Shown here: one piece after another, positions 24,935 through 35,700 of the stretch | Position numbering within the stretch: position 1 is the first letter of the stretch | Layout of the letters: each line of letters starts with the position of its first letter | Source of the DNA: Caldithrix abyssi | GTDB taxonomy: Bacteria; Calditrichota; Calditrichia; Calditrichales; Calditrichaceae | Length of the DNA stretch: 35,700 nucleotides | Reading direction: 5' to 3' | Assembly: GCA_011369465.1 (NCBI GenBank) | Contig: DRQG01000139.1 | Coordinates: forward strand, 1 to 35,700 | Program-made: the position numbers and the translations under genes | Notes under the pieces: model-generated | Told to the model about the DNA's origin: nothing | Database searches by the model: none | The model's input: only the letters and a program-made list of their open reading frames with translations

Positions 24935-25570
24935 ATGACCTCATTTAAGAATTTGACGGTTCTGGATCATCCCCTCATTCAGCAAAAACTGTTTTACTTA
25001 CGGGATTATCGAACGAATAATTACAACTTCCGCACCATTTTAAACGAACTGGCCGGTTTAATGGTGTATGAAATCACACGTGATTTCCCTTTGGCCGAGC
25101 GCGAAGTAACCACGCCGCTGGAAAAAACCACCGGTTACGTGCTGGCCCGGCCCATAACCCTGGTACCCATTTTGAGAGCCGGATTGGGAATGTGTGACGG
25201 CATAATGAATCTGGTGCCGCAGGCCAGGGTAGGGCATCTGGGATTGTACAGGGATAAAAAGACCCTGCAGCCCGTGGAATATTACCGCAAATTTCCATCG
25301 GATCTGGAGAATTCGGACGTATTGGTCATCGATCCGATGCTGGCAACCGGCGGCAGCGCTGCGGCGGCTTTGGATTTTGTAAAGCAGGCCGGGGCGCGCT
25401 GGATTGCCTTTGTATGCCTGGTGGCCGCACCGGAGGGGGTACGTGTTCTGGAAGAGCGGCATCCCGACATACCCGTTTATACCGCCGCTTTAGACCGCGA
25501 ACTGAATGAGCATAAATATATTCTGCCCGGTCTGGGAGACGCGGGTGACCGTATTTACGGCACGGAATGA
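24935..25570 (+). CDS. upp: Uracil phosphoribosyltransferase
   Basis: Pyrimidine salvage enzyme converting uracil and PRPP to UMP, 211 residues, the usual length. Clear family marks are VPILRAGLGM, the PRPP-binding loop VLVIDPMLATGGSA, and the C-terminal uracil-binding GLGDAGDRIYGT. AGGA lies at normal distance before the ATG. It follows the acyltransferase by 21 bases and converges on the signalling operon; the 73 bases between the two stop codons show no convincing terminator. Confidence 0.96.
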   Translation: MTSFKNLTVLDHPLIQQKLFYLRDYRTNNYNFRTILNELAGLMVYEITRDFPLAEREVTTPLEKTTGYVLARPITLVPILRAGLGMCDGIMNLVPQARVGHLGLYRDKKTLQPVEYYRKFPSDLENSDVLVIDPMLATGGSAAAALDFVKQAGARWIAFVCLVAAPEGVRVLEERHPDIPVYTAALDRELNEHKYILPGLGDAGDRIYGTE

Positions 25571-25643: not shown

Positions 25644-27284
25644 TTAAGATAAACACACTTTGTTTCGACCGCTCTTTTTCGCTTTGTACAGAGCCTTATC
25701 GGCCAGCATCAAAAGCTCGCGGGAGTTGTCGGCGTCTTCCGGTAATGCAGCCACTCCGATACTAACGGTAATGGGGCAGCGCTGCGATGACGGTTTTTCC
25801 AGATCAAAGTTAAAACCTTCAATTTTTTTCCTCAACTTCTCGGCAATCTGAGCCGCTTCTTCTTTGGTTAAATGGGGCAGTATAACCGTAAACTCTTCAC
25901 CGCCGTAACGGGCCACAGTATCTGTTGTGCGGATATTCTCTTTGAGAATGGCAGCGATCGTCTTTAAAACACGGTCTCCTTCCAGATGACCGTGCGTATC
26001 GTTGAATTCTTTAAAATAATCCACATCGATCATCAAAAGAGAAAAAGGGTAATTGAAACGTTTGGTACGATTGGTTTCGCGTTCCAGCTCCTGAATAAAA
26101 TAGCGGTAATTATACACTCCGGTCAGCTCATCGTGCATAGCCTGCTTTTCACGGATGTGATATAGTTTCATCAGCCGTGCGTAAAGCAATATGTTCTCAT
26201 AAATAATCCCCATGGTTTGCATAAAAGATTTGAGAATGCGCACTTCGTACGTGGCGAAGGGAGTACCGGTGACGCCTTTGTCCATAAAAAACAAATATTG
26301 CTGGGATGGAGCGGGGGGCGAATCGATATCGCTGGCCTGGGAAATTTTGTATATGATCCGGGTCGCTTCCTGCTGCGTGCCCATATAGGAAAGATTGCCT
26401 ACCAGAAAAGAAGATGCAGACAGTTTACGGGCGAGGGTCAATAAAGATTTATCCAGAATCTCATTAATGTTTTTTATCCATAAGATACCATTCTCCCGTT
26501 TCAGGTATTGGAGGAAATCCGGCGATATTTTGAATTTAATCTTTTTTAGATTGGTCTCCGTTTCTCCCACATAAGAAAAGACTTCCAGACGCAGCGACTC
26601 CCGGTCGATTTTAAAAAAAATACACCGTTCGATGTGAAATCCTTCGGCAATTTTTTGCGGTAAAAGTTTTATTAACCGCTCAGGGTTGGTTTCCGTGCGT
26701 AGTTGGTTGGCCAGGTTGTTCAAATAAAACAGCCGGTCGTTATATTGGGAGAGCTGATCGTGCGATATTTCCAGTTCCCGATTCAGCTTGGTCAGATTGA
26801 TGTTCATCTGTTCCAGCTCGGTAATCTTTTTTTTGAGCCGACTGACCAGCTGAATGTTGTATTGCTGCAGGAAGTGCTTTTCATCTTCCTCCGGTACAAC
26901 GTCTTTGCGGCCGCTCAGGTATTCTTCTATTTTAAACAGGAATTCGGTCACGTTAATCGGTTTGGAAATATAGCCGTCGCAGCCGGCGGTGAGAACGATC
27001 TCTTTGGCGTTTTTCTGGGTCTCACCGGTGAGGGCGATGATGGGTGTGTCACGCAGCCCCGGCAGACTTTTCAGATGGGTGGTAACTTCGTATCCCTGCA
27101 TATCCGGCAAACGCAGATCAATCAGAATGAGATCCGGCTTGTGTTCCCTGGCCAGATGAATGCCCTCCAACCCGCGGGCGGCTTCCAGATAAATATATCC
27201 TTTATATCGTATAATATCCGCCATCAGAGTGCGGGCTTCGGGATCATCTTCGATATACAGAATTTTACGGGTTTTGCTGTTCAT
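25644..27284 (-). CDS. Receiver-GAF-GGDEF diguanylate cyclase
   Basis: A 546-residue response regulator that makes c-di-GMP. Residues 5-125 form a receiver domain with acidic D13-D14, phosphoacceptor D56 (LILIDLRLPDM), T86 and K108 (SKPIN). A coiled-coil-like stretch near 145-185 and a GAF-like domain (about 190-370) follow. The C-terminal GGDEF domain begins DELTGVYNYRYF, has the active-site RYGGEEF, and an RTTD inhibitory site five residues before GGEEF, so it is probably active and feedback-inhibited. No histidine kinase gene is in the window. It is the last gene of the signalling operon, 17 bases after the SpoIIE-phosphatase gene, so c-di-GMP synthesis is likely one output of that module. 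No EAL domain is present. Confidence 0.9.
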   Translation of the reverse strand: MNSKTRKILYIEDDPEARTLMADIIRYKGYIYLEAARGLEGIHLAREHKPDLILIDLRLPDMQGYEVTTHLKSLPGLRDTPIIALTGETQKNAKEIVLTAGCDGYISKPINVTEFLFKIEEYLSGRKDVVPEEDEKHFLQQYNIQLVSRLKKKITELEQMNINLTKLNRELEISHDQLSQYNDRLFYLNNLANQLRTETNPERLIKLLPQKIAEGFHIERCIFFKIDRESLRLEVFSYVGETETNLKKIKFKISPDFLQYLKRENGILWIKNINEILDKSLLTLARKLSASSFLVGNLSYMGTQQEATRIIYKISQASDIDSPPAPSQQYLFFMDKGVTGTPFATYEVRILKSFMQTMGIIYENILLYARLMKLYHIREKQAMHDELTGVYNYRYFIQELERETNRTKRFNYPFSLLMIDVDYFKEFNDTHGHLEGDRVLKTIAAILKENIRTTDTVARYGGEEFTVILPHLTKEEAAQIAEKLRKKIEGFNFDLEKPSSQRCPITVSIGVAALPEDADNSRELLMLADKALYKAKKSGRNKVCLS

Positions 27285-27301
27285 ATAAAGGCTCGTGTTG
27301 C

Positions 27302-29203
27302 CTATTCATGTTTGCATAAAACCAGGGTCATATCGTCGTCGGGAATATCCGCTTTTGCGAAATCCCGTACCGCTTCCAAAATAATGTTGCGTACTTCCTG
27401 TACGGGCAGCTTACGGTTTTTTCGGGCCAGTTCAATCAGCCGTTCTTCGCCGAATTCTTCTTCCCGATGATTCATCGCCTCCGTGATGCCGTCGGTATAG
27501 GCTACAAGAAAATCGCCCTGCTCAAACGGAATGCTTTCCTGCGTATAAATCTGATCGGCCAGAAAGCCTAAAACGATACCTCCTTTTTCCAATCGGAACA
27601 CCTGGCCGTTTGCTTTAATAAAAATTGGCGGATTGTGCCCAGCGTTGGTATAGATAAGCTCATTTTTCTCCGTGGAAATCAGTGCGAAAAAGAAGGATGC
27701 ATATTTCCCTTCTATGGTGCTTTCGTGTAAAAGGTTGTTCAGGCGGTACACGGTGTCGCATACGGTATAAAAGGTTACCTTCTGACTGCGCAAAGAAGCG
27801 AGGATCAAAGCCATCATCAATGCGGCCGGCGCTCCTTTTCCGGATACATCGCCAATGGCCACGCCCATGGTGGTAGAGTCATAGCGGATCAGATCGTACA
27901 AATCGCCGCTGACCAGTTTACTGGGCTGGTGGGATACGGAGATTTGCAGGTGTTCAAGGCGCGGAATACGCTGCACCAGCAAACGACGCTGTACGGCGCC
28001 GGCGTCCACCAACTCATGCTCGAGTTCCTTCTTAGCCAGATACACGTTAATTTGCCGGGCGTTATGGATAGCAATGGCCGCCTGGGTGGCAAATAATTTA
28101 AGCGTTTCCACCGTAGTCTGGTTAAAAAAATTGGGCTGATCGCTTTCCAGGCAGATAACGCCCATAACCTTGTTGTTGAAAATAAGAGGCACCGACAATT
28201 GGGATTGGGTTTGCGGACGGATCGCATAATAATGCTCGGCATTTTCCACATGGGGTAGCACGTGCGTTTTTCCGGTTTGCACTACCCAGCCGCAGGCGCC
28301 CTGCCCGATTTTTAAATGCAGTTTTTCCAAAGCTTCGGCGGGATATCCGTCGCTGCTTACCGTGAGCAGGTTTTCGCCGCGTTTATCAACCAGAAATACC
28401 GCCGCCGCATCATAGTTAATAAGCGATTTTAAGGAAATCAGTATAAAATCCAGCGTTCGTTTGGGGTTGAAGGAAGACAGTATTTTTTCGTTTACTTCGA
28501 ATAGTTTATGAATTTGGCGGTTGCGCTGTTCCAGATCGGCAAACAAAGCGGTGTTTTCCAGGATAAGCCCGGCTTTTTTCTGAATTTTTTCCAACAATCC
28601 CCGCGTTTCGGCATCCTTAAAAAGGATACAGCCATCGGGATAAAGTATGAGTAATGCGGCTATGCGGTTGTGCCCGGGAAACAGGAATAGCGCGTGCATA
28701 TTCTGTTTCAGAAAACGGTCGCGGACCGGTTTGTCGATCAAACTGTCCCTATGCAGGTCACGGGTTAGCTCGTCGGTTTGCTTTTTCTGGAATGGCAGAA
28801 GGGATATCTCCTCGGGAAAATCGTAAGGCCGTTCCTTGTCAGAGAACTTCACCAGATGGTACTTATCATTTTGCAAAATATAATAGGCCCAGGGCCGTTC
28901 ACGGAATAACCTGTCGAAGGCTGTTAACAAAGCCTGGCGCACTTCTGAATAACGGATAGTCTGGTTCAGATATGAATTCAAATCCTGTAGTATTTGGATG
29001 GCGTCGTTTAAGCGCATATACCTCTTGCTGCGCAGTAATTTACGTATCAGCCGCCGTGCCGGTTTTTGCCACAATCCGAGGACGATGCCAAAGCTGAGTA
29101 CAACCGGCAACCAGGGCCAATTAAAGACGGCAAACGAGATGTAAAAATAACCGAAATAGATGACAAGGATAACAAATGATCCGGAATAGCGAAAATTGTG
29201 CAC
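27302..29203 (-). CDS. Membrane-anchored GAF-SpoIIE (PP2C-type) phosphatase
   Basis: A 633-residue serine phosphatase of the RsbU/SpoIIE group. Two short hydrophobic segments (about 9-27 and 30-44) anchor it. A GAF-like region (about 80-215) and a clearer GAF domain (about 240-385, ending ATQAAIAIHNAR) precede the phosphatase. Metal-site motifs are VSGDLYD (432), GDVSGKG (451-457), NAGHNPP, YTDGITEA and DDDMTLV; the first has SGD where GGD is usual, but the Asp is kept. The start is GTG with GGAG eight bases before it. It probably dephosphorylates a STAS-domain protein such as the one encoded two genes upstream in the operon. Confidence 0.88.
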   Translation of the reverse strand: MHNFRYSGSFVILVIYFGYFYISFAVFNWPWLPVVLSFGIVLGLWQKPARRLIRKLLRSKRYMRLNDAIQILQDLNSYLNQTIRYSEVRQALLTAFDRLFRERPWAYYILQNDKYHLVKFSDKERPYDFPEEISLLPFQKKQTDELTRDLHRDSLIDKPVRDRFLKQNMHALFLFPGHNRIAALLILYPDGCILFKDAETRGLLEKIQKKAGLILENTALFADLEQRNRQIHKLFEVNEKILSSFNPKRTLDFILISLKSLINYDAAAVFLVDKRGENLLTVSSDGYPAEALEKLHLKIGQGACGWVVQTGKTHVLPHVENAEHYYAIRPQTQSQLSVPLIFNNKVMGVICLESDQPNFFNQTTVETLKLFATQAAIAIHNARQINVYLAKKELEHELVDAGAVQRRLLVQRIPRLEHLQISVSHQPSKLVSGDLYDLIRYDSTTMGVAIGDVSGKGAPAALMMALILASLRSQKVTFYTVCDTVYRLNNLLHESTIEGKYASFFFALISTEKNELIYTNAGHNPPIFIKANGQVFRLEKGGIVLGFLADQIYTQESIPFEQGDFLVAYTDGITEAMNHREEEFGEERLIELARKNRKLPVQEVRNIILEAVRDFAKADIPDDDMTLVLCKHE

Positions 29204-29267
29204 TGGTATTTCTCCGTTTAACGTTCACGCCCTCGAAAAAGCAATATATATAAATGCAGGATGGGAT

Positions 29268-31037
29268 TCAACGTTCCCTTTTTAGTGTAAGGATGGTAAT
29301 ATCGTCGGATTGAGTGAGATGTCCTTCGGTAAAGCGGGTGAGCTGGTCGATGAGCCGGCGGTTTATTTCTTCGGAATGGTTATCTTTAAAATTCTCCCGG
29401 AGAAAGCGAATCAGTCTCTTCTCTTCGAATTCATTGTAGTTAGGATCCATGGCTTCGGTTACGCCGTCGGTAAACATCATTATGCCCTCGTGCGCATCCA
29501 GCCGGCCGCGACCGGTTTCATAGGTAACGTCCGGCATCATGCCCAAAATAATACCGCCGTCATACAGGGTTGTATAGCTGCCGTCGGGACGAAAATGGTA
29601 CGGCGGGTTGTGCCCCGCGTTCACGAATTCGTAGGAACCGCTGGGCAGGTGCAGTTTTAAGATAAAAAAAGTAATATATCTATCAATACTGGTGTTTTTA
29701 TGGATGAGGTGATTCAATTTGCCCGTAATCTGGCTGAGTGAATATTGTTCGGTAGCCAATGTGTGCAACGCAGCCTGCAGGTTGGACATCAACAGCGAAG
29801 CCGGCATCCCCTTACCGGAAACATCGGCTATGGTGAAAATACATTCTTCGTCGCCCGTAACAATAATATCGAAATAATCGCCGCCCACCTGTTTACTGGG
29901 CAGGTTTAAACCATGGATATCATAGCCGGGAATCTCGGGCATCGCGGCAGGCAACAGCTTTTCCTGGATGCCCCGCGCCATATTCAATTCCTCTTCCAGA
30001 CGCTTCTTCTCCAGCGTTTCCTGAAAAAGACGGGCATTTTCCAGTGAGATGATGGTCATGTTGCCGAAGGTAGCCAGAAAATCCATTTCCGATTGGGTGA
30101 AATCCTGTTGATTCATTTTGGGGCCGATAAAAATATAACCCTCGTTTTTATCCTGCATAACCAAAGGCACAATGACCCGAATACCCGCTTCATGACAAAA
30201 ACCGTAGCGCGCATCGTCTTCTTCAATTTTAACGGGCGCCGACAATCCCTCAAGGGCGGCACATTGCCGCATAAATGATTCCAGCTTATCTTCGGCGAAA
30301 ACCGATCCCTTTTTGAAAATGATTTGTAATTGATCCTCCTCCCGTAACATCACAAAAAAACGATTGACCAGTAATTGCCCCATCAGAGAATAGGATACCT
30401 GCTTTAATATCTCTTCTTTGTCGAAAATGCGGTTCAGCTCTTTCCCGATTTCGAAAAGCGTGTTTAACTCCTGGATTTTTTTGTCCAGTTCACGATTGAC
30501 CCGATTCAGCTCTTCGTAATTTCTGGCGTTTTCCAGGGCCTGTACGGCGATATTGGCCAGGGAAGAGAGAAACTCGATCTCATCCTGTACAAATTCTTCT
30601 TTGGTGAGTTTGGGCCCTAAGCCGAATAACCCGCGGAAATCTTTGTTGGAAATAAGCGGAATCAGCAGCTCAATTTTGTACTCGCGCAGAATACGGGCCC
30701 ATTCATCATCATTCTTATACGACTGAAGCAAAACAGGGTGCTGCGGCGGATTGTTGATGTGGATTTTTTTCCCGATAATGGATAACGGCAGACCTTTGGC
30801 GCTGGCGATGTTGTACTCATAGCGCTCTTCTTCAAAAAGCACCATACCGCGGGAAATCATCATACGGCCCATAGGCACCAGCAGTATGGTATCCAGAATG
30901 GATTTTAAGTTAAGGGATGAGTTAAGGGTCTGGCTGATTTCAAACAGTGCGGACAGCTCGATAAGTTTTTTATCCAGCCGGTCGTTTTCGGCAATTTCGC
31001 CGTGTCTGGCTTTAAAACTGTTCAGATAGTGCGGCAT
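29268..31037 (-). CDS. Soluble double-GAF SpoIIE (PP2C-type) phosphatase
   Basis: A 589-residue cytoplasmic phosphatase. Two GAF domains lie at about 25-172 and 190-337; each begins with a LFEI helix and ends with a LENAR helix. The SpoIIE domain has LLPAAMPEIPG, QVGGDYFD (D387), IADVSGKGMPAS (405-410), NAGHNPP, FTDGVTEA (D524) and SDDITIL (578-579), a complete metal-binding set. No membrane segment is present. Its ATG follows the stop of the RsbW-like kinase gene by one base, so the two are translated together. The likely substrate is the phosphorylated STAS protein of this operon. The GAF ligands cannot be told from sequence. Confidence 0.9.
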   Translation of the reverse strand: MPHYLNSFKARHGEIAENDRLDKKLIELSALFEISQTLNSSLNLKSILDTILLVPMGRMMISRGMVLFEEERYEYNIASAKGLPLSIIGKKIHINNPPQHPVLLQSYKNDDEWARILREYKIELLIPLISNKDFRGLFGLGPKLTKEEFVQDEIEFLSSLANIAVQALENARNYEELNRVNRELDKKIQELNTLFEIGKELNRIFDKEEILKQVSYSLMGQLLVNRFFVMLREEDQLQIIFKKGSVFAEDKLESFMRQCAALEGLSAPVKIEEDDARYGFCHEAGIRVIVPLVMQDKNEGYIFIGPKMNQQDFTQSEMDFLATFGNMTIISLENARLFQETLEKKRLEEELNMARGIQEKLLPAAMPEIPGYDIHGLNLPSKQVGGDYFDIIVTGDEECIFTIADVSGKGMPASLLMSNLQAALHTLATEQYSLSQITGKLNHLIHKNTSIDRYITFFILKLHLPSGSYEFVNAGHNPPYHFRPDGSYTTLYDGGIILGMMPDVTYETGRGRLDAHEGIMMFTDGVTEAMDPNYNEFEEKRLIRFLRENFKDNHSEEINRRLIDQLTRFTEGHLTQSDDITILTLKRER

Positions 31038-31038
31038 A

Positions 31039-31485
31039 TTAGGCAGTTTTTTTTCTTTTATACTTCGTTAACGTAACCGTGTTCTTTTTAGTCGGATTAA
31101 ACCGGAACTCTACATCGTCCATCAAAGAGCGCATTAAATGGATACCCAGCCCTCCGCGTTTGGAAGACTGTACGTATGCTTTCAGATCGGGTTTGGGAAG
31201 GGCTTCGGGTTCAAACCCTTTGCCTGTATCGCTGATGCGAATCTGTATTTTATCGGAGTCCAGCAGCACACGGATATCTATTTTGCGGCGACGATTGTTG
31301 TTATAGGCATGTCGGATCACATTGGTGCAGGCCTCATCCACAGCCAATTCTATCTGTCCGGCAACTTCTTCTTCAAACCCGGCCTTTATGGCCAGTTTGT
31401 GCACAAAATCGCGGACGATCTCCAGGTTTTCCGTTGCGGCCGCTATTTTAAGATTATATGTAAGTGCTGTTCTTTTTTTCATCAT
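31039..31485 (-). CDS. RsbW/SpoIIAB-like anti-sigma or switch kinase
   Basis: A 148-residue GHKL ATPase-type serine kinase. In partner switching such proteins phosphorylate a STAS antagonist and bind an alternative partner, often a sigma factor. The N-box is ELAVDEACTNVIRHAY (N55), followed by the G1 box ISDTGKGFEP (D86) and the G2 box KRGGLGIHLMRS. It begins ATGATG with AGG five bases before. It lies between the STAS gene (40 bases upstream) and a SpoIIE phosphatase (one base downstream). No sigma factor gene is present, so its bound partner is unknown. Confidence 0.9.
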   Translation of the reverse strand: MMKKRTALTYNLKIAAATENLEIVRDFVHKLAIKAGFEEEVAGQIELAVDEACTNVIRHAYNNNRRRKIDIRVLLDSDKIQIRISDTGKGFEPEALPKPDLKAYVQSSKRGGLGIHLMRSLMDDVEFRFNPTKKNTVTLTKYKRKKTA

Positions 31486-31525
31486 ATACCTAATGATTAA
31501 ATTCGAAAAGTAAAGGAAAAAGTTT

Positions 31526-31879
31526 CTATTGGGCCGAATTAAACTTGTTTAAAGCCTCTTGTTCATCCTCACAAATATCAAATAAAGCCGGAAAACCCAG
31601 TAAATCGAATACTTTGTACACTTTGGGCGAAAGATTGGAAATTTTGATATCGCCGCCTTTTTCCCTTATTTCTTCGATAAAGCCCATAAACACCCCCAAT
31701 CCGGCAGAGCTGATATAGTCCAGGTCCTTAAGGTTCACGGTAATTTTATAGCGGTCTTCTTTTAAAAGGTCTTGCAGGGCATTTTCGAACCTGTTTACCG
31801 TATGGGCGTCCAGAAAGCCGGACAGGTGTAATACGGACACTTCATTTTTATCGCTGCGAGAAATATCGAACCCGCTCAT
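31526..31879 (-). CDS. STAS-domain anti-sigma factor antagonist
   Basis: A 117-residue RsbV/SpoIIAA-like protein that in its dephosphorylated form binds and inhibits the partner kinase. The STAS fold is clear: LHLSGFLDAHTVNRFE, KITVNLKDLDYISSAG, then LSPKVYKVFDLLGF. Ser57 or Ser58 in SSAGLGVF is the expected phosphosite. A strong GGAGG Shine-Dalgarno precedes the ATG, so it may be made in excess over its kinase, as partner switches often require. It is the probable substrate of the RsbW-like kinase next door and of the three SpoIIE phosphatases of this operon. Confidence 0.93.
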   Translation of the reverse strand: MSGFDISRSDKNEVSVLHLSGFLDAHTVNRFENALQDLLKEDRYKITVNLKDLDYISSAGLGVFMGFIEEIREKGGDIKISNLSPKVYKVFDLLGFPALFDICEDEQEALNKFNSAQ

Positions 31880-31909
31880 TCAAACCTCCAAAGGTTGTAT
31901 GGATGTATT

Positions 31910-34003
31910 TTATTTTTCCTTTATCTTTACCAGCACCAATGTCAGATCGTCGTGCAGATTGTTACCGTCCAGAAAACGGAGTATCTCATCTATGATGGCG
32001 TCCTTTAACTCAGGAGCCGTTAAATGATTGTTTTGTCGTATAATGTCGCATAGGCGATCCTCGCCGAATTCTTCGTTATCCCGGTTTCGGGCCTCGGAAA
32101 GGCCGTCGGTGTAAAAAACAAAAATATCGCCGCTTTGCATGGCCACGTGCTGTTCAGCCAGTTTTTCACTGAAAATGGGACCGCTGTCCAACCCTATGGC
32201 AATGCCCGGCGGCTGCAGTACGGAAATCTTTTCATCCTGTGCATTGTAGTAGATGACCGGGCAATGTCCGGCCCGAGCAAATTTAAAAACATTTGTTTTA
32301 AAATCAAATTGAGCTGCCAGCAGGCTTATAAAGGATTTGCGTTCCATGGACTGGTAGAGGATCGAGTTGGTTTCGGACAGAATTTCTTTTGGCGACTGAT
32401 ACATACGGGCCACGGACTGAATGATGCCTTTGGTTTCCGCCATATAAAAGGCCGCTGAGGTTCCTTTTCCGCTTACATCGCCAATAGCCACACCGAGTCG
32501 ATGATCGCTGAGATTGTAAAAGTCAAAATAGTCGCCGCCCACCTCGTAAGCGGTGATGGTGAGCGTGTCCACCTCCGCCGAGCCGAAGGTCGGAATGGAT
32601 TGAGGTAAAAGACGCATCTGTACTTCGCGGGCGATCTGCAATTCTTTTTCCATCCGTTCCCGCTCGAGGGATACTTTCATCAAATAGGCGTTCTCTATGG
32701 CAATAGCCGCCTGATTGGCATAGGCCTCCAGCATATTTACATCATCGGGGTCGAAACCGAAGGGCGCGGTTTTGGCGGCAAAAAGAATTCCCAGGCTGCC
32801 CCCTTTACTGTTTTTTAACGGCACACCGACCAATGAACCGATCTTTGGCAAAATGTCCACAATGGGATGATTGAATGATTCTTTGGATGTATCGTTGATA
32901 ACAATGGAAGTCTGATTTTCCGAGAACAAGGCAACGCTGTTCTGATTTTCAAGACGGTTGTTCAATTCTTCTATCTTTTTTGCATCCAGATTGGTGGAGG
33001 CCGTAACCGAAAGCTTTTGGTGATCCGTATCCAGATATTCCAGCCAGGTGTAATTTGATTCGATAACCTCCGACGTCAGGTCGGTTACCTTTTGTACCAG
33101 TTTATGTAAATCGTGTTCGGCGGAGATGGTACGGCTCAGGTTATGCAGGGAGGATACTTCCTTCATTTTGCGGTCGAAAGCCCGGGCCGTGGGGATATGG
33201 CGCATCAGATTCAGACCGGTAAACAGCGCGTAGAATACTAAAAACAACCAGGCCATATTGGCAAAGGCGCCCAAAGCCAGGCTGTACGACGGCACGGCCT
33301 CATTGATTACCAGATCGAAGAGCAAAAATACAAACCAGACAACGACCGATACGGCCAGAAAATAGGTATATTTTTCTTTTCGGGAAAGATACGTTACCCA
33401 GGCATTGCGGGTGGCCAGCATAACGCTGAATGCAATCGTTACCGCATAGGGTATATTGTTGAACAGGGCGGTGCCGCTAAATTGGAAGTCGAGCGGGATT
33501 TCGAACAGAACAGTAAAAAAAATACTTACCGCCGCGCTAACGAGCGCAATATAGATATAGAGCGTGGTGTATTTTTTATATTTATAGTAAATCAGGTTTT
33601 TGATTACGATCAATAAAGGCGTTAAAAATATTATGGCCGCCATAGATAATAAAAAGGCATAAAAAACACTCCCGAGCGTTTCGGCCTGGGGTGGAAAGGT
33701 GGAATGTGAAAATGACGGATTAAGCAAATAATGGGCGATCAGGTAAAAAATGTAAAAAGAAGCCAGCAGCTTTAAAAATAATAATAAATTCGGCTGCACC
33801 CGTCTTTCGCTGTAAAAGGAGCGCGTTTTCAGAAAAAGAAAATACAGGATAAGTACGGCTATGGATAAAGCTTCGTGAATGTATCCCCACAGGCGGATTT
33901 CCAGTGCGGTGTAAAATTCGAGTACATCATACGACAAGGTGATGAGACTCAGTACACCGGCTGCAAGCAGTAACAGTTGTGCTGGAATACGCAGCTTCTT
34001 CAT
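31910..34003 (-). CDS. Multi-pass membrane GAF-SpoIIE (PP2C-type) phosphatase
   Basis: A 697-residue inner-membrane phosphatase. About eight hydrophobic helices fill residues 8-267 (near 8-25, 42-60, 73-93, 111-137, 147-170, 182-198, 212-235 and 243-267). A GAF domain follows at about 290-440, ending ANQAAIAIENAYL. The SpoIIE domain has LLPQSIPTFG, YEVGGDYFD (489-491), GDVSGKG (508-514), RAGHCPVI, YTDGLSEA and DDLTLVLV. The usual AGHNPP reads AGHCP; other key residues are kept. Its ATG overlaps the stop of the upstream lipoprotein gene (ATGA), which suggests the membrane part senses or contacts that lipoprotein. The STAS gene follows 30 bases downstream. Confidence 0.9.
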   Translation of the reverse strand: MKKLRIPAQLLLLAAGVLSLITLSYDVLEFYTALEIRLWGYIHEALSIAVLILYFLFLKTRSFYSERRVQPNLLLFLKLLASFYIFYLIAHYLLNPSFSHSTFPPQAETLGSVFYAFLLSMAAIIFLTPLLIVIKNLIYYKYKKYTTLYIYIALVSAAVSIFFTVLFEIPLDFQFSGTALFNNIPYAVTIAFSVMLATRNAWVTYLSRKEKYTYFLAVSVVVWFVFLLFDLVINEAVPSYSLALGAFANMAWLFLVFYALFTGLNLMRHIPTARAFDRKMKEVSSLHNLSRTISAEHDLHKLVQKVTDLTSEVIESNYTWLEYLDTDHQKLSVTASTNLDAKKIEELNNRLENQNSVALFSENQTSIVINDTSKESFNHPIVDILPKIGSLVGVPLKNSKGGSLGILFAAKTAPFGFDPDDVNMLEAYANQAAIAIENAYLMKVSLERERMEKELQIAREVQMRLLPQSIPTFGSAEVDTLTITAYEVGGDYFDFYNLSDHRLGVAIGDVSGKGTSAAFYMAETKGIIQSVARMYQSPKEILSETNSILYQSMERKSFISLLAAQFDFKTNVFKFARAGHCPVIYYNAQDEKISVLQPPGIAIGLDSGPIFSEKLAEQHVAMQSGDIFVFYTDGLSEARNRDNEEFGEDRLCDIIRQNNHLTAPELKDAIIDEILRFLDGNNLHDDLTLVLVKIKEK

Positions 34004-35295
34004 TGAATGTACACCCTGAGAGGATAAATGGTTTGTGGATATCTACCGATAACAGTCCCGTCGGGACGTATATGTACAAGCTCTCTGTGTCCCGTATCTG
34101 CCACCAATAAGGCTCCGTTGAATGTGTTTATACGAAAATCGCGAATATATTTAAAACGGTTCAAACTGTTCAAACGTAATCCATGCGTAGAAAGTTGCAC
34201 TAATTCCGCTCCCTGTTCATTATTCACACTCAGCCACAGGTAAGCTCCGCTTTTGGCCTCGCGCACCGTGTGCAATCCATCGCTGCTGAACAGTTGCCGC
34301 ACCGAATCGTTGTTGACACTATACCTATACAAAGTTTTGCCGTCTTTATTCATATCGATGATAAGCAGTACATTATTTTGTGCGGCGGCTTCAATAAACT
34401 GCGGGTTGTTCAGGGGAATGGTGTCCAGTTTGCTAATACGGCCGACAAAATCTCCCTGCAGGTTGAACATTTGTATACTTTTTGTACCCTTATCCAAAAT
34501 ATAAACAAATTCGGCATCCGTTACCATCTGTACCGGCTTGCGCGGCTCGTCGGAGATAAGCCGGGCCAATCCGTTGGTGGTATCCACCCGAAAAACACCG
34601 CCGCTGCTGTCGCAAAGCCAGAATTCGCCGATCGATTCAATGTAAACGGTTTCGTAAGGAGAATCCAATTCATAATTATAAGCCAAACCGGCAGCGTTTC
34701 TGGTATCAATTACCTCAAAATATTGAAAAGCGGGGTAGGTGATTAAAGCCCGGTGCCTGGTGCGATCCAGCGCCATGCTTTGCGGCTGCCAAACCCCGTA
34801 GCGGGTTACCAGTGTATGCTGCAAATCGTAGGTTAAATGCAGGGTGATGTACAGCCAGTTGTCCAGTACCCAAAAGGAAAGCGGCCCCGGCGTAACCTTT
34901 TCCGAATAAGAAGGCGGTGACTCGCCGCTTTGCCCCTGAACGGTTACATAGTAGCTGTAAAGCACATCAAAATCGGTTACGGTATCCTCGTAAACAGTTT
35001 GTCCGGCTGTGAGGGAGGCAATACGGCGGTATTCGGTTTCCGATCCGGTTTTGCGATATATATGGAATCCCGTATAGTCCACTGTGGTTGGCGCATGCCA
35101 GCGCAAACCGATGACCGAATCGGCCGAGGTGATGGCCAACCCCAGATCCAGTGAGTCGATATCGGCTAAGGGATCAAAAACATTGATGCGTTCTCTTGGT
35201 TCACAGGCGGAAAAAAACAGGATGATCACCAGGTTGAAGATGAGAAGAAGGATTCGCCGAATCCGCCTCCATGATGCTGCTTGTTTTGTGGCCAT
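34000..35295 (-). CDS. Lipoprotein with FN3-like and beta-propeller-like repeats
   Basis: A 431-residue predicted lipoprotein. After a basic stretch (RRIRR) comes a hydrophobic core ending LFFSAC, a lipobox with Cys at about 31, then EPRERINVFDPL. Residues about 45-135 resemble a fibronectin type III domain (VIGLRWHAPTTVDYTGFHIY). The remainder has repeated short strand blocks such as GEFWLCDSSGGVFRVDT, FVYILDKGTKSIQMFN and GALLVADTGHRELVHI, as in NHL/YVTN-type beta-propellers. It is the first gene of the signalling operon and overlaps the membrane phosphatase gene by four bases. A sensor or ligand-binding role outside the inner membrane is inferred. GGTGA precedes the ATG. Confidence 0.7.
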   Translation of the reverse strand: MATKQAASWRRIRRILLLIFNLVIILFFSACEPRERINVFDPLADIDSLDLGLAITSADSVIGLRWHAPTTVDYTGFHIYRKTGSETEYRRIASLTAGQTVYEDTVTDFDVLYSYYVTVQGQSGESPPSYSEKVTPGPLSFWVLDNWLYITLHLTYDLQHTLVTRYGVWQPQSMALDRTRHRALITYPAFQYFEVIDTRNAAGLAYNYELDSPYETVYIESIGEFWLCDSSGGVFRVDTTNGLARLISDEPRKPVQMVTDAEFVYILDKGTKSIQMFNLQGDFVGRISKLDTIPLNNPQFIEAAAQNNVLLIIDMNKDGKTLYRYSVNNDSVRQLFSSDGLHTVREAKSGAYLWLSVNNEQGAELVQLSTHGLRLNSLNRFKYIRDFRINTFNGALLVADTGHRELVHIRPDGTVIGRYPQTIYPLRVYIQ

Positions 35296-35460: not shown

Positions 35461-35523
35461 ATTTCGGACACATATCTGTCCTAATAAATAGAAAAGGCTA
35501 CATAAAATATAAGTATTTATGCG

Positions 35524-35645
35524 TTTCCCCCTAATAAGGCTTGTGCGCCGTGGCGTGGGGACTAAGGGGGTGTTTTCTGCAGAAGTAGAATTTATTGTTC
35601 CTGTCTTAATTACAACCCCCTAACCCCCTTTTTTAAGGGGGAATT
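35524..35645. repeat. G-run palindromic intergenic repeat
   Basis: CCCCCTAATAAGG near 35527, GCGCCGTGGCGTGGGGACTAAGGGGGTG near 35546-35573, and a CCCCCTT/AAGGGGG hairpin at 35624-35641 with a 4-base loop. It shares its CGCCGTGGCG and CTAAGGGGG-type parts with the cluster at 11964-12090. The rest of 35460-35700 is AT-rich and shows no gene. Confidence 0.6.
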
Positions 35646-35700
35646 TTGTATTTGTTTTAAATAATATGGTTACATATTGATATAGCAAATTATTTAGGAC

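Follow-up and report, generated by a model that had tools for sequence, protein, structure and literature searches.

Most of what is known about partner switches comes from Gram-positive bacteria, Chlamydia, cyanobacteria, and Pseudomonas. In such a switch, RsbW holds a target and phosphorylates a STAS protein; once restored by a phosphatase, the STAS protein captures RsbW. In Bacillus subtilis, RsbU and RsbP share RsbV as their substrate, and the convergence of several phosphatases on one STAS protein is therefore already known (PMC7522486). Activation of the phosphatases in this system is partner-dependent (PMC7522486, PMC12143880), and in a published model a helix located before the PPM phosphatase domain transmits signals, with activation through a linker dimer (PMC12143880). 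The action of Chlamydia RsbW on a primary sigma factor makes an unlinked housekeeping sigma factor a possible target of a switch (PMC4552016), and the precedents of SiaD and HsbD do the same for a diguanylate cyclase (DGC) output (PMC8457831, PMC5085249). In a literature search, no description was found of a switch of this type in Caldithrix, Ignavibacteria, or Bacteroidetes.

The window considered here, i.e. the whole stretch of DNA that was analysed (35,700 nucleotides), is the entire contig C139 of a 4.3-Mb genome (G000). It harbors seven tightly packed minus-strand genes, running from 35295 to 25644 in the order LipA, P1, STAS, RsbW, P2, P3, and DGC, with successive intergenic gaps of -4, 30, 40, 1, 64, and 17 bp. 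Table 1 presents their coordinates. This order recurs in dozens of genomes and is therefore not accidental. Transcription as a single operon is a prediction; promoter-like and terminator-like matches across the cluster are not in excess over shuffled sequence. The upp boundary is also found in several relatives. The genes rlmN-adk upstream and serS-plsC-upp downstream were considered as parts of the switch and set aside as housekeeping neighbours. A dispersed repeat of about 230 bp (35470-35700, with CCCCCTTAAAAAAGGGGG near one end), which has 29 matches in its own genome, sits between LipA and the contig end, at the position of adk in relatives.

Table 1. Features of the partner-switch cluster and its downstream boundary in the window.
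Feature	Coordinates	Strand	Length (aa)	Evidence
LipA lipoprotein	34000..35295	-	431	AlphaFold2 model, propeller matches, lipobox
P1, 8-TM-GAF-SpoIIE/PPM phosphatase	31910..34003	-	697	Pfam and structure model
STAS switch protein, RsbV/SpoIIAA-like	31526..31879	-	117	Pfam PF01740, TIGR00377
RsbW/SpoIIAB-like HATPase_c_2 serine kinase / switch protein	31039..31485	-	148	Pfam PF13581
P2, soluble GAF-GAF-SpoIIE phosphatase	29268..31037	-	589	Pfam and hydropathy
P3, membrane-anchored GAF-SpoIIE phosphatase, GTG start, accessory block	27302..29203	-	633	Pfam and hydropathy
DGC, REC - middle region - GGDEF, accessory block	25644..27284	-	546	Pfam/NCBIfam
upp, convergent, bounds the cluster; then plsC, serS	24935..25570	+		Pfam/NCBIfam

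A first-pass annotation had described a cluster of three SpoIIE phosphatases sharing one STAS-kinase pair, with a receiver-GGDEF protein at its end and no sigma gene. Open reading frame and domain searches recover all of these genes at the same places on the minus strand, together with LipA, which lies within the span of that annotation but is absent from its text. The modelled structure of P1 agrees with the proposed eight-helix membrane phosphatase, with eight membrane-length N-terminal helices followed by GAF (296-437) and SpoIIE (499-694) domains. P2, described as soluble, has two GAF matches and a SpoIIE domain and is devoid of any hydrophobic segment, and the membrane-anchored P3 is hydrophobic at 6-44, with a GAF domain at 248-380 and a SpoIIE domain. 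The protein at the end of the cluster indeed combines a REC (8-116) and a GGDEF (382-542) domain, and a Sigma70_r2 search of contig C139, the whole window, gave zero matches.

The cluster carries the proteins expected of an Rsb/SpoIIA-type switch. The STAS protein scores above the TIGR00377 cut-off, and its conserved phosphoacceptor, Ser58, lies within a YISSAG motif that is invariant in 27 sequences and aligns with the acceptor serine of RsbV. The kinase is of the RsbW/SpoIIAB type with an intact ATP site: residues of the N, G1, and G2 boxes, namely E51, N55, D86/G88/G90 (DxGxGF box), and G111/G112/G114 (GGLG), are invariant in 27 sequences, and its best PDB relative is RsbW (6m36), with SpoIIAB next. 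All three Pfam phosphatases are of the SpoIIE/PPM type with metal-binding aspartates. In P1, residues D491, D509, D633, D685, and D686 as well as the GDVSGKG motif are invariant in 26 orthologs, and the PDB fold matches include the RsbU domain of Rv1364c, RssB, and SiaA-PP2C. The window sequences of P2 and P3 carry the GD, DVSGKG, TDG, and DD motifs. With catalytic and phosphoacceptor residues intact in the window, and those of STAS, RsbW, and P1 invariant in relatives, the cluster proteins look functional. The P1 model also has a long helix (419-465) between the GAF and phosphatase domains that fits linker-dimer activation and suggests signalling through a coiled-coil linker. In the single-contig relative G005, P1 is broken across two frames (543 aa and 174 aa; locus L098, 11089-13177), owing to a frameshift, a pseudogene, or a sequencing error.

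Comparison with related genomes divides the seven genes into two blocks, a conserved core LipA-P1-STAS-RsbW-P2 and a separate pair P3-DGC. When 60 relatives were searched with P1, full-length orthologs were found throughout the class, and 40 regions were compared. The core order is common to families f1-f6, in many cases preceded by rlmN and adk, and P2 adjoins RsbW in nearly all relatives. A STAS ortholog (at least 53% identity) is found in 36 of the 40 class genomes, and three of the four genomes lacking it are less than 90% complete. A DGC ortholog (at least 48% identity), by comparison, is found in 18 of these 40 genomes, directly after P3 in all 18; it is confined to families f1 and f4 and some of f2, always in the company of P3. 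The P3-DGC pair adjoins P2 in ten genomes of families f1, f2, and f4 (G000, G001, G002, G006, G007, G009, G011, G014, G016, and G024), counting G009, whose contig stops after P3 so that the DGC is not visible there, and G002, in which a methyltransferase gene lies between P2 and P3. The P2-P3 gap ranges from 64 bp in the window to 815 bp. In G005, P3-DGC lies about 75 kb from the core, and in G008 and G010 P2 and P3 each have other neighbours, such placements being readable only where contigs continue, as contig ends intervene elsewhere. Finally, P3 is solitary in families f3, f5, and f6 and in genus g12, where the stretch read shows no STAS or kinase gene next to it and where such a DGC is absent. 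Conservation of the operon in relatives, raised in the first-pass annotation, therefore holds for the core, kept class-wide, but not for P3-DGC, which is separable from it.

The core extends well beyond the class. A STAS-profile scan of 84,980 species genomes was performed and the best 80 loci were analysed, so that the spread reported here is a lower bound. These 80 loci come from Calditrichota, KSB1, Ignavibacteria, Bacteroidota, Balneolales, Rhodothermales, and Kapaibacterium. STAS and RsbW occur together in nearly all of them, and P1 and P2 orthologs flank the pair in many, with P1 missing in Balneolales and in loci L154, L158, L172, and L178, and P2 missing in Rhodothermales and others. 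The P1-STAS-RsbW-P2 core, at times minus one phosphatase, is thus seen in metagenome-assembled genomes of KSB1, Ignavibacteria, Bacteroidota, Balneolales, and Rhodothermales. At least two phosphatases are present in 55 of the 80 same-strand runs (two in 43, three in 10, four in 1, and five in 1, i.e. three to five in 12), and fewer than two in the other 25, many of which are clipped by contig ends. The extra phosphatases are lineage-specific, such as REC-SpoIIE in KSB1 and PDZ-GAF-SpoIIE in Melioribacteraceae, and were recruited independently. Locus L152 (3285-15284) has five SpoIIE phosphatases around one STAS-RsbW pair, and in locus L149 (5067-5927) a single STAS gene precedes two RsbW genes in tandem, in a run that contains four phosphatases. 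The RsbW tree resolves deep relations poorly, and FCB-wide orthology consequently leans mainly on gene order and STAS identity. The core appears to be old and common to a large group of bacteria.

LipA was detected, among the best 80 loci, solely in Calditrichota and KSB1-like loci. It carries a lipobox cysteine (Cys31, nearly invariant among 24 relatives), an FN3 domain (about 54-134), and a six-bladed beta-propeller (about 141-430) in an AlphaFold2 model with a pLDDT of 93. Its neighbours in the PDB are propellers of the YVTN type and BtuG surface lipoproteins, and profile comparison matches it to NHL/Pizza-type propellers. LipA overlaps P1 by 4 bp in the window, and an overlap of 1 or 4 bp is found in 24 of 25 loci, L105 having a gap instead. 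Because of this overlap, LipA is likely a translationally coupled envelope partner or sensor for P1, for which RsbQ, the co-transcribed partner of RsbP, offers a parallel (PMC7522486). LipA need not work via P1 everywhere, since the four KSB1 loci devoid of P1 (L154, L158, L172, and L178) keep LipA along with STAS, RsbW, and P2. The MATE and TPR genes located upstream of P1 in Ignavibacteria were considered as LipA counterparts and ruled out on the basis of Pfam; for MATE, profile comparison gave the same verdict.

Our preferred reading, to which we give a probability of about 0.6, is that the cluster encodes a partner-switch hub in which P1 and P2 feed into one STAS-RsbW pair whose target is encoded elsewhere, with P3-DGC as an added block. 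In the resting state, RsbW would phosphorylate Ser58 of the STAS protein and keep the target in check. P1 would be informed of envelope conditions via its 8-TM domain and the coupled propeller lipoprotein, and P2 of cytosolic conditions via its GAF domains. Dephosphorylation of STAS-P by either enzyme would let STAS capture RsbW and free the target, most likely a sigma factor. P3 may supply a third input in the part of the lineage where P3-DGC adjoins the hub, and the DGC would act as a parallel c-di-GMP arm, its receiver being phosphorylated by an unlinked kinase.

That several phosphatases converge on one STAS-kinase pair, as the first-pass annotation had suggested, is well supported by gene neighbourhood for P1 and P2, whose genes lie on either side of STAS-RsbW throughout the class and far outside it; both are likely STAS-P phosphatases given this conserved position. 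For P3, an orphan in the outgroup families and located away from the core in G005, convergence is plausible but unproven. P3-DGC could instead be an independent unit, with a STAS protein encoded elsewhere or some other substrate for P3, and with no more than a shared neighbourhood behind the adjacency to the hub. The solitary P3 genes, the variable P2-P3 spacing with its one inserted methyltransferase gene, and the presence of other STAS proteins in the genome speak for such independence. Adjacency in ten genomes of three families, the gap of just 64 bp in the window, and the gain of other extra phosphatases by hubs in other lineages speak against it, and we regard it as a tentative minority view. 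Besides this pair, the genome encodes nine further STAS proteins, stand-alone or extended, as well as two membrane proteins that contain STAS domains and several additional kinases and phosphatases, any of which could cross-talk with the hub. A second, paralogous STAS protein is encoded on contig C118 (L114, 6285-10273); it has 233 aa and is extended at its C-terminus, and the gene before it specifies a HATPase_c_2-HAMP-SpoIIE fusion of 1079 aa. STAS proteins of this type are found in nearly all class genomes.

As to the output, the first-pass annotation had left a choice between c-di-GMP and an unlinked sigma factor. In the former case, unphosphorylated STAS or freed RsbW would bind the DGC and set its activity. 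The DGC at the end of the cluster has an intact GGEEF motif, with an RxxD inhibitory-site motif five residues upstream, and P. aeruginosa provides two precedents for a DGC linked to a STAS-type protein, SiaC-SiaD and HsbA-HsbD (PMC8457831, PMC7647112, PMC5085249). Possible by precedent, such an output is nevertheless disfavoured as a general one by the distribution of the DGC, which is found in 18 class genomes versus 36 for STAS. Among the best 80 loci, a GGDEF gene occurs in the run of a single Calditrichaceae locus. The DGC also follows P3 and never STAS, lies about 75 kb from the switch in G005, and has in its receiver domain a separate input of its own. Since most relatives have the switch without a DGC beside it, c-di-GMP is unlikely as the main output, and we consider this reading quite improbable.

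We favour a target encoded outside the cluster, probably a sigma factor, although the analysis identified none. An anti-sigma role of RsbW towards an unlinked sigma factor, perhaps of the primary or ECF type, is one form of the output of the preferred reading rather than its competitor, and we place it just short of even odds. RsbW belongs to the RsbW/SpoIIAB family, RsbW acts on sigma66 in Chlamydia (PMC4552016), and locus L215 of Melioribacteraceae carries an ECF sigma gene within the run itself, 2 bp ahead of P1. The window genome itself encodes a sigma-linked module on contig C116 (L115, 1508-7327), composed of a serine/threonine-kinase-like gene (by sequence), a SpoIIE phosphatase, RsbW, STAS, an ECF sigma factor, and a 254-aa protein; the missing sigma gene in our cluster is therefore a real difference. 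Against an anti-sigma role, a sigma gene is present in the run in just 3 of the best 80 loci, and in one of these, L211, a zf-HC2 protein of its own comes after it. The Sigma70_r2 matches of the genome comprise two RpoD-like, two FliA/WhiG-type, and about eleven ECF proteins; no SigB/F/G-type sigma factor was recognised among them, the four non-ECF matches scoring below the SigBFG cut-off, and a SigB/SigF regulon with a cognate sigma gene in the operon or genome is thus not seen here. The WhiG/FliA-like sigma L078 was rejected as a general target, as its orthologs (at least 43% identity) occur in 19 of 40 class genomes and are missing from many complete relatives, several of them core-bearing. 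A broader proposal is an FCB-superphylum-wide switch, absent from the papers searched, with a P1-STAS-RsbW-P2 hub that lacks a sigma gene of its own and is made to take on further sensor phosphatases, in which the propeller lipoprotein, at the outer surface or in the periplasm, would be the envelope sensor of Calditrichota and KSB1, and RsbW would control something other than an alternative sigma factor; taken as a whole, it is doubtful.

The novelty lies in a core found class-wide and FCB-wide, in the lipoprotein, and in the modularity of the third phosphatase and DGC; the functional steps are all inferred. The LipA-P1 pair suggests a new way of feeding envelope signals to a PPM phosphatase. 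Near-universal in the class and widespread in FCB bacteria, a fixed STAS-kinase pair with exchangeable sensor phosphatases would constitute a general route to multi-signal integration, the target of which is directly testable.

How does this locus relate to the described systems? Stressosome proteins RsbR/RsbS/RsbT are absent from the seven genes of the cluster, to which the search was confined. HsbR of P. aeruginosa is a REC-phosphatase-kinase fusion, whereas the cluster encodes its kinase and its phosphatases, of which there are several, as separate proteins. What it has in common with HsbR-HsbA-HsbD is the association of a STAS protein with a diguanylate cyclase (PMC5085249). SiaABCD of the same species likewise clusters a membrane PP2C phosphatase, a kinase, a STAS-fold protein, and a DGC (PMC7647112, PMC8457831), but our cluster has a canonical STAS protein and RsbW (PF01740 and PF13581, with no match to a SiaC-type model), a serine instead of a threonine acceptor, several phosphatases, and a REC-GGDEF protein that forms a pair with P3 and that most relatives lack; the scores of P1-P3 are far under the SiaA cut-off, and the DGC falls below that of SiaD. 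As in the Chlamydia Rsb network, RsbU-, RsbV-, and RsbW-like proteins occur without a SigB-type sigma factor, Chlamydia RsbW binding the primary sigma66 (PMC4552016), but that network has fewer sensors and neither a propeller lipoprotein nor a DGC. Finally, the RsbU/RsbP-RsbV-RsbW-SigB system of B. subtilis shares with the cluster two PPM phosphatases with different sensors, which in the cluster too would act on one STAS protein, and an RsbW kinase counterpart (PMC7522486, PMC12143880). It differs in that the cluster described here has no sigma gene in or near it, and in that its phosphatases are clustered with STAS-RsbW, one of them being coupled to a lipoprotein.
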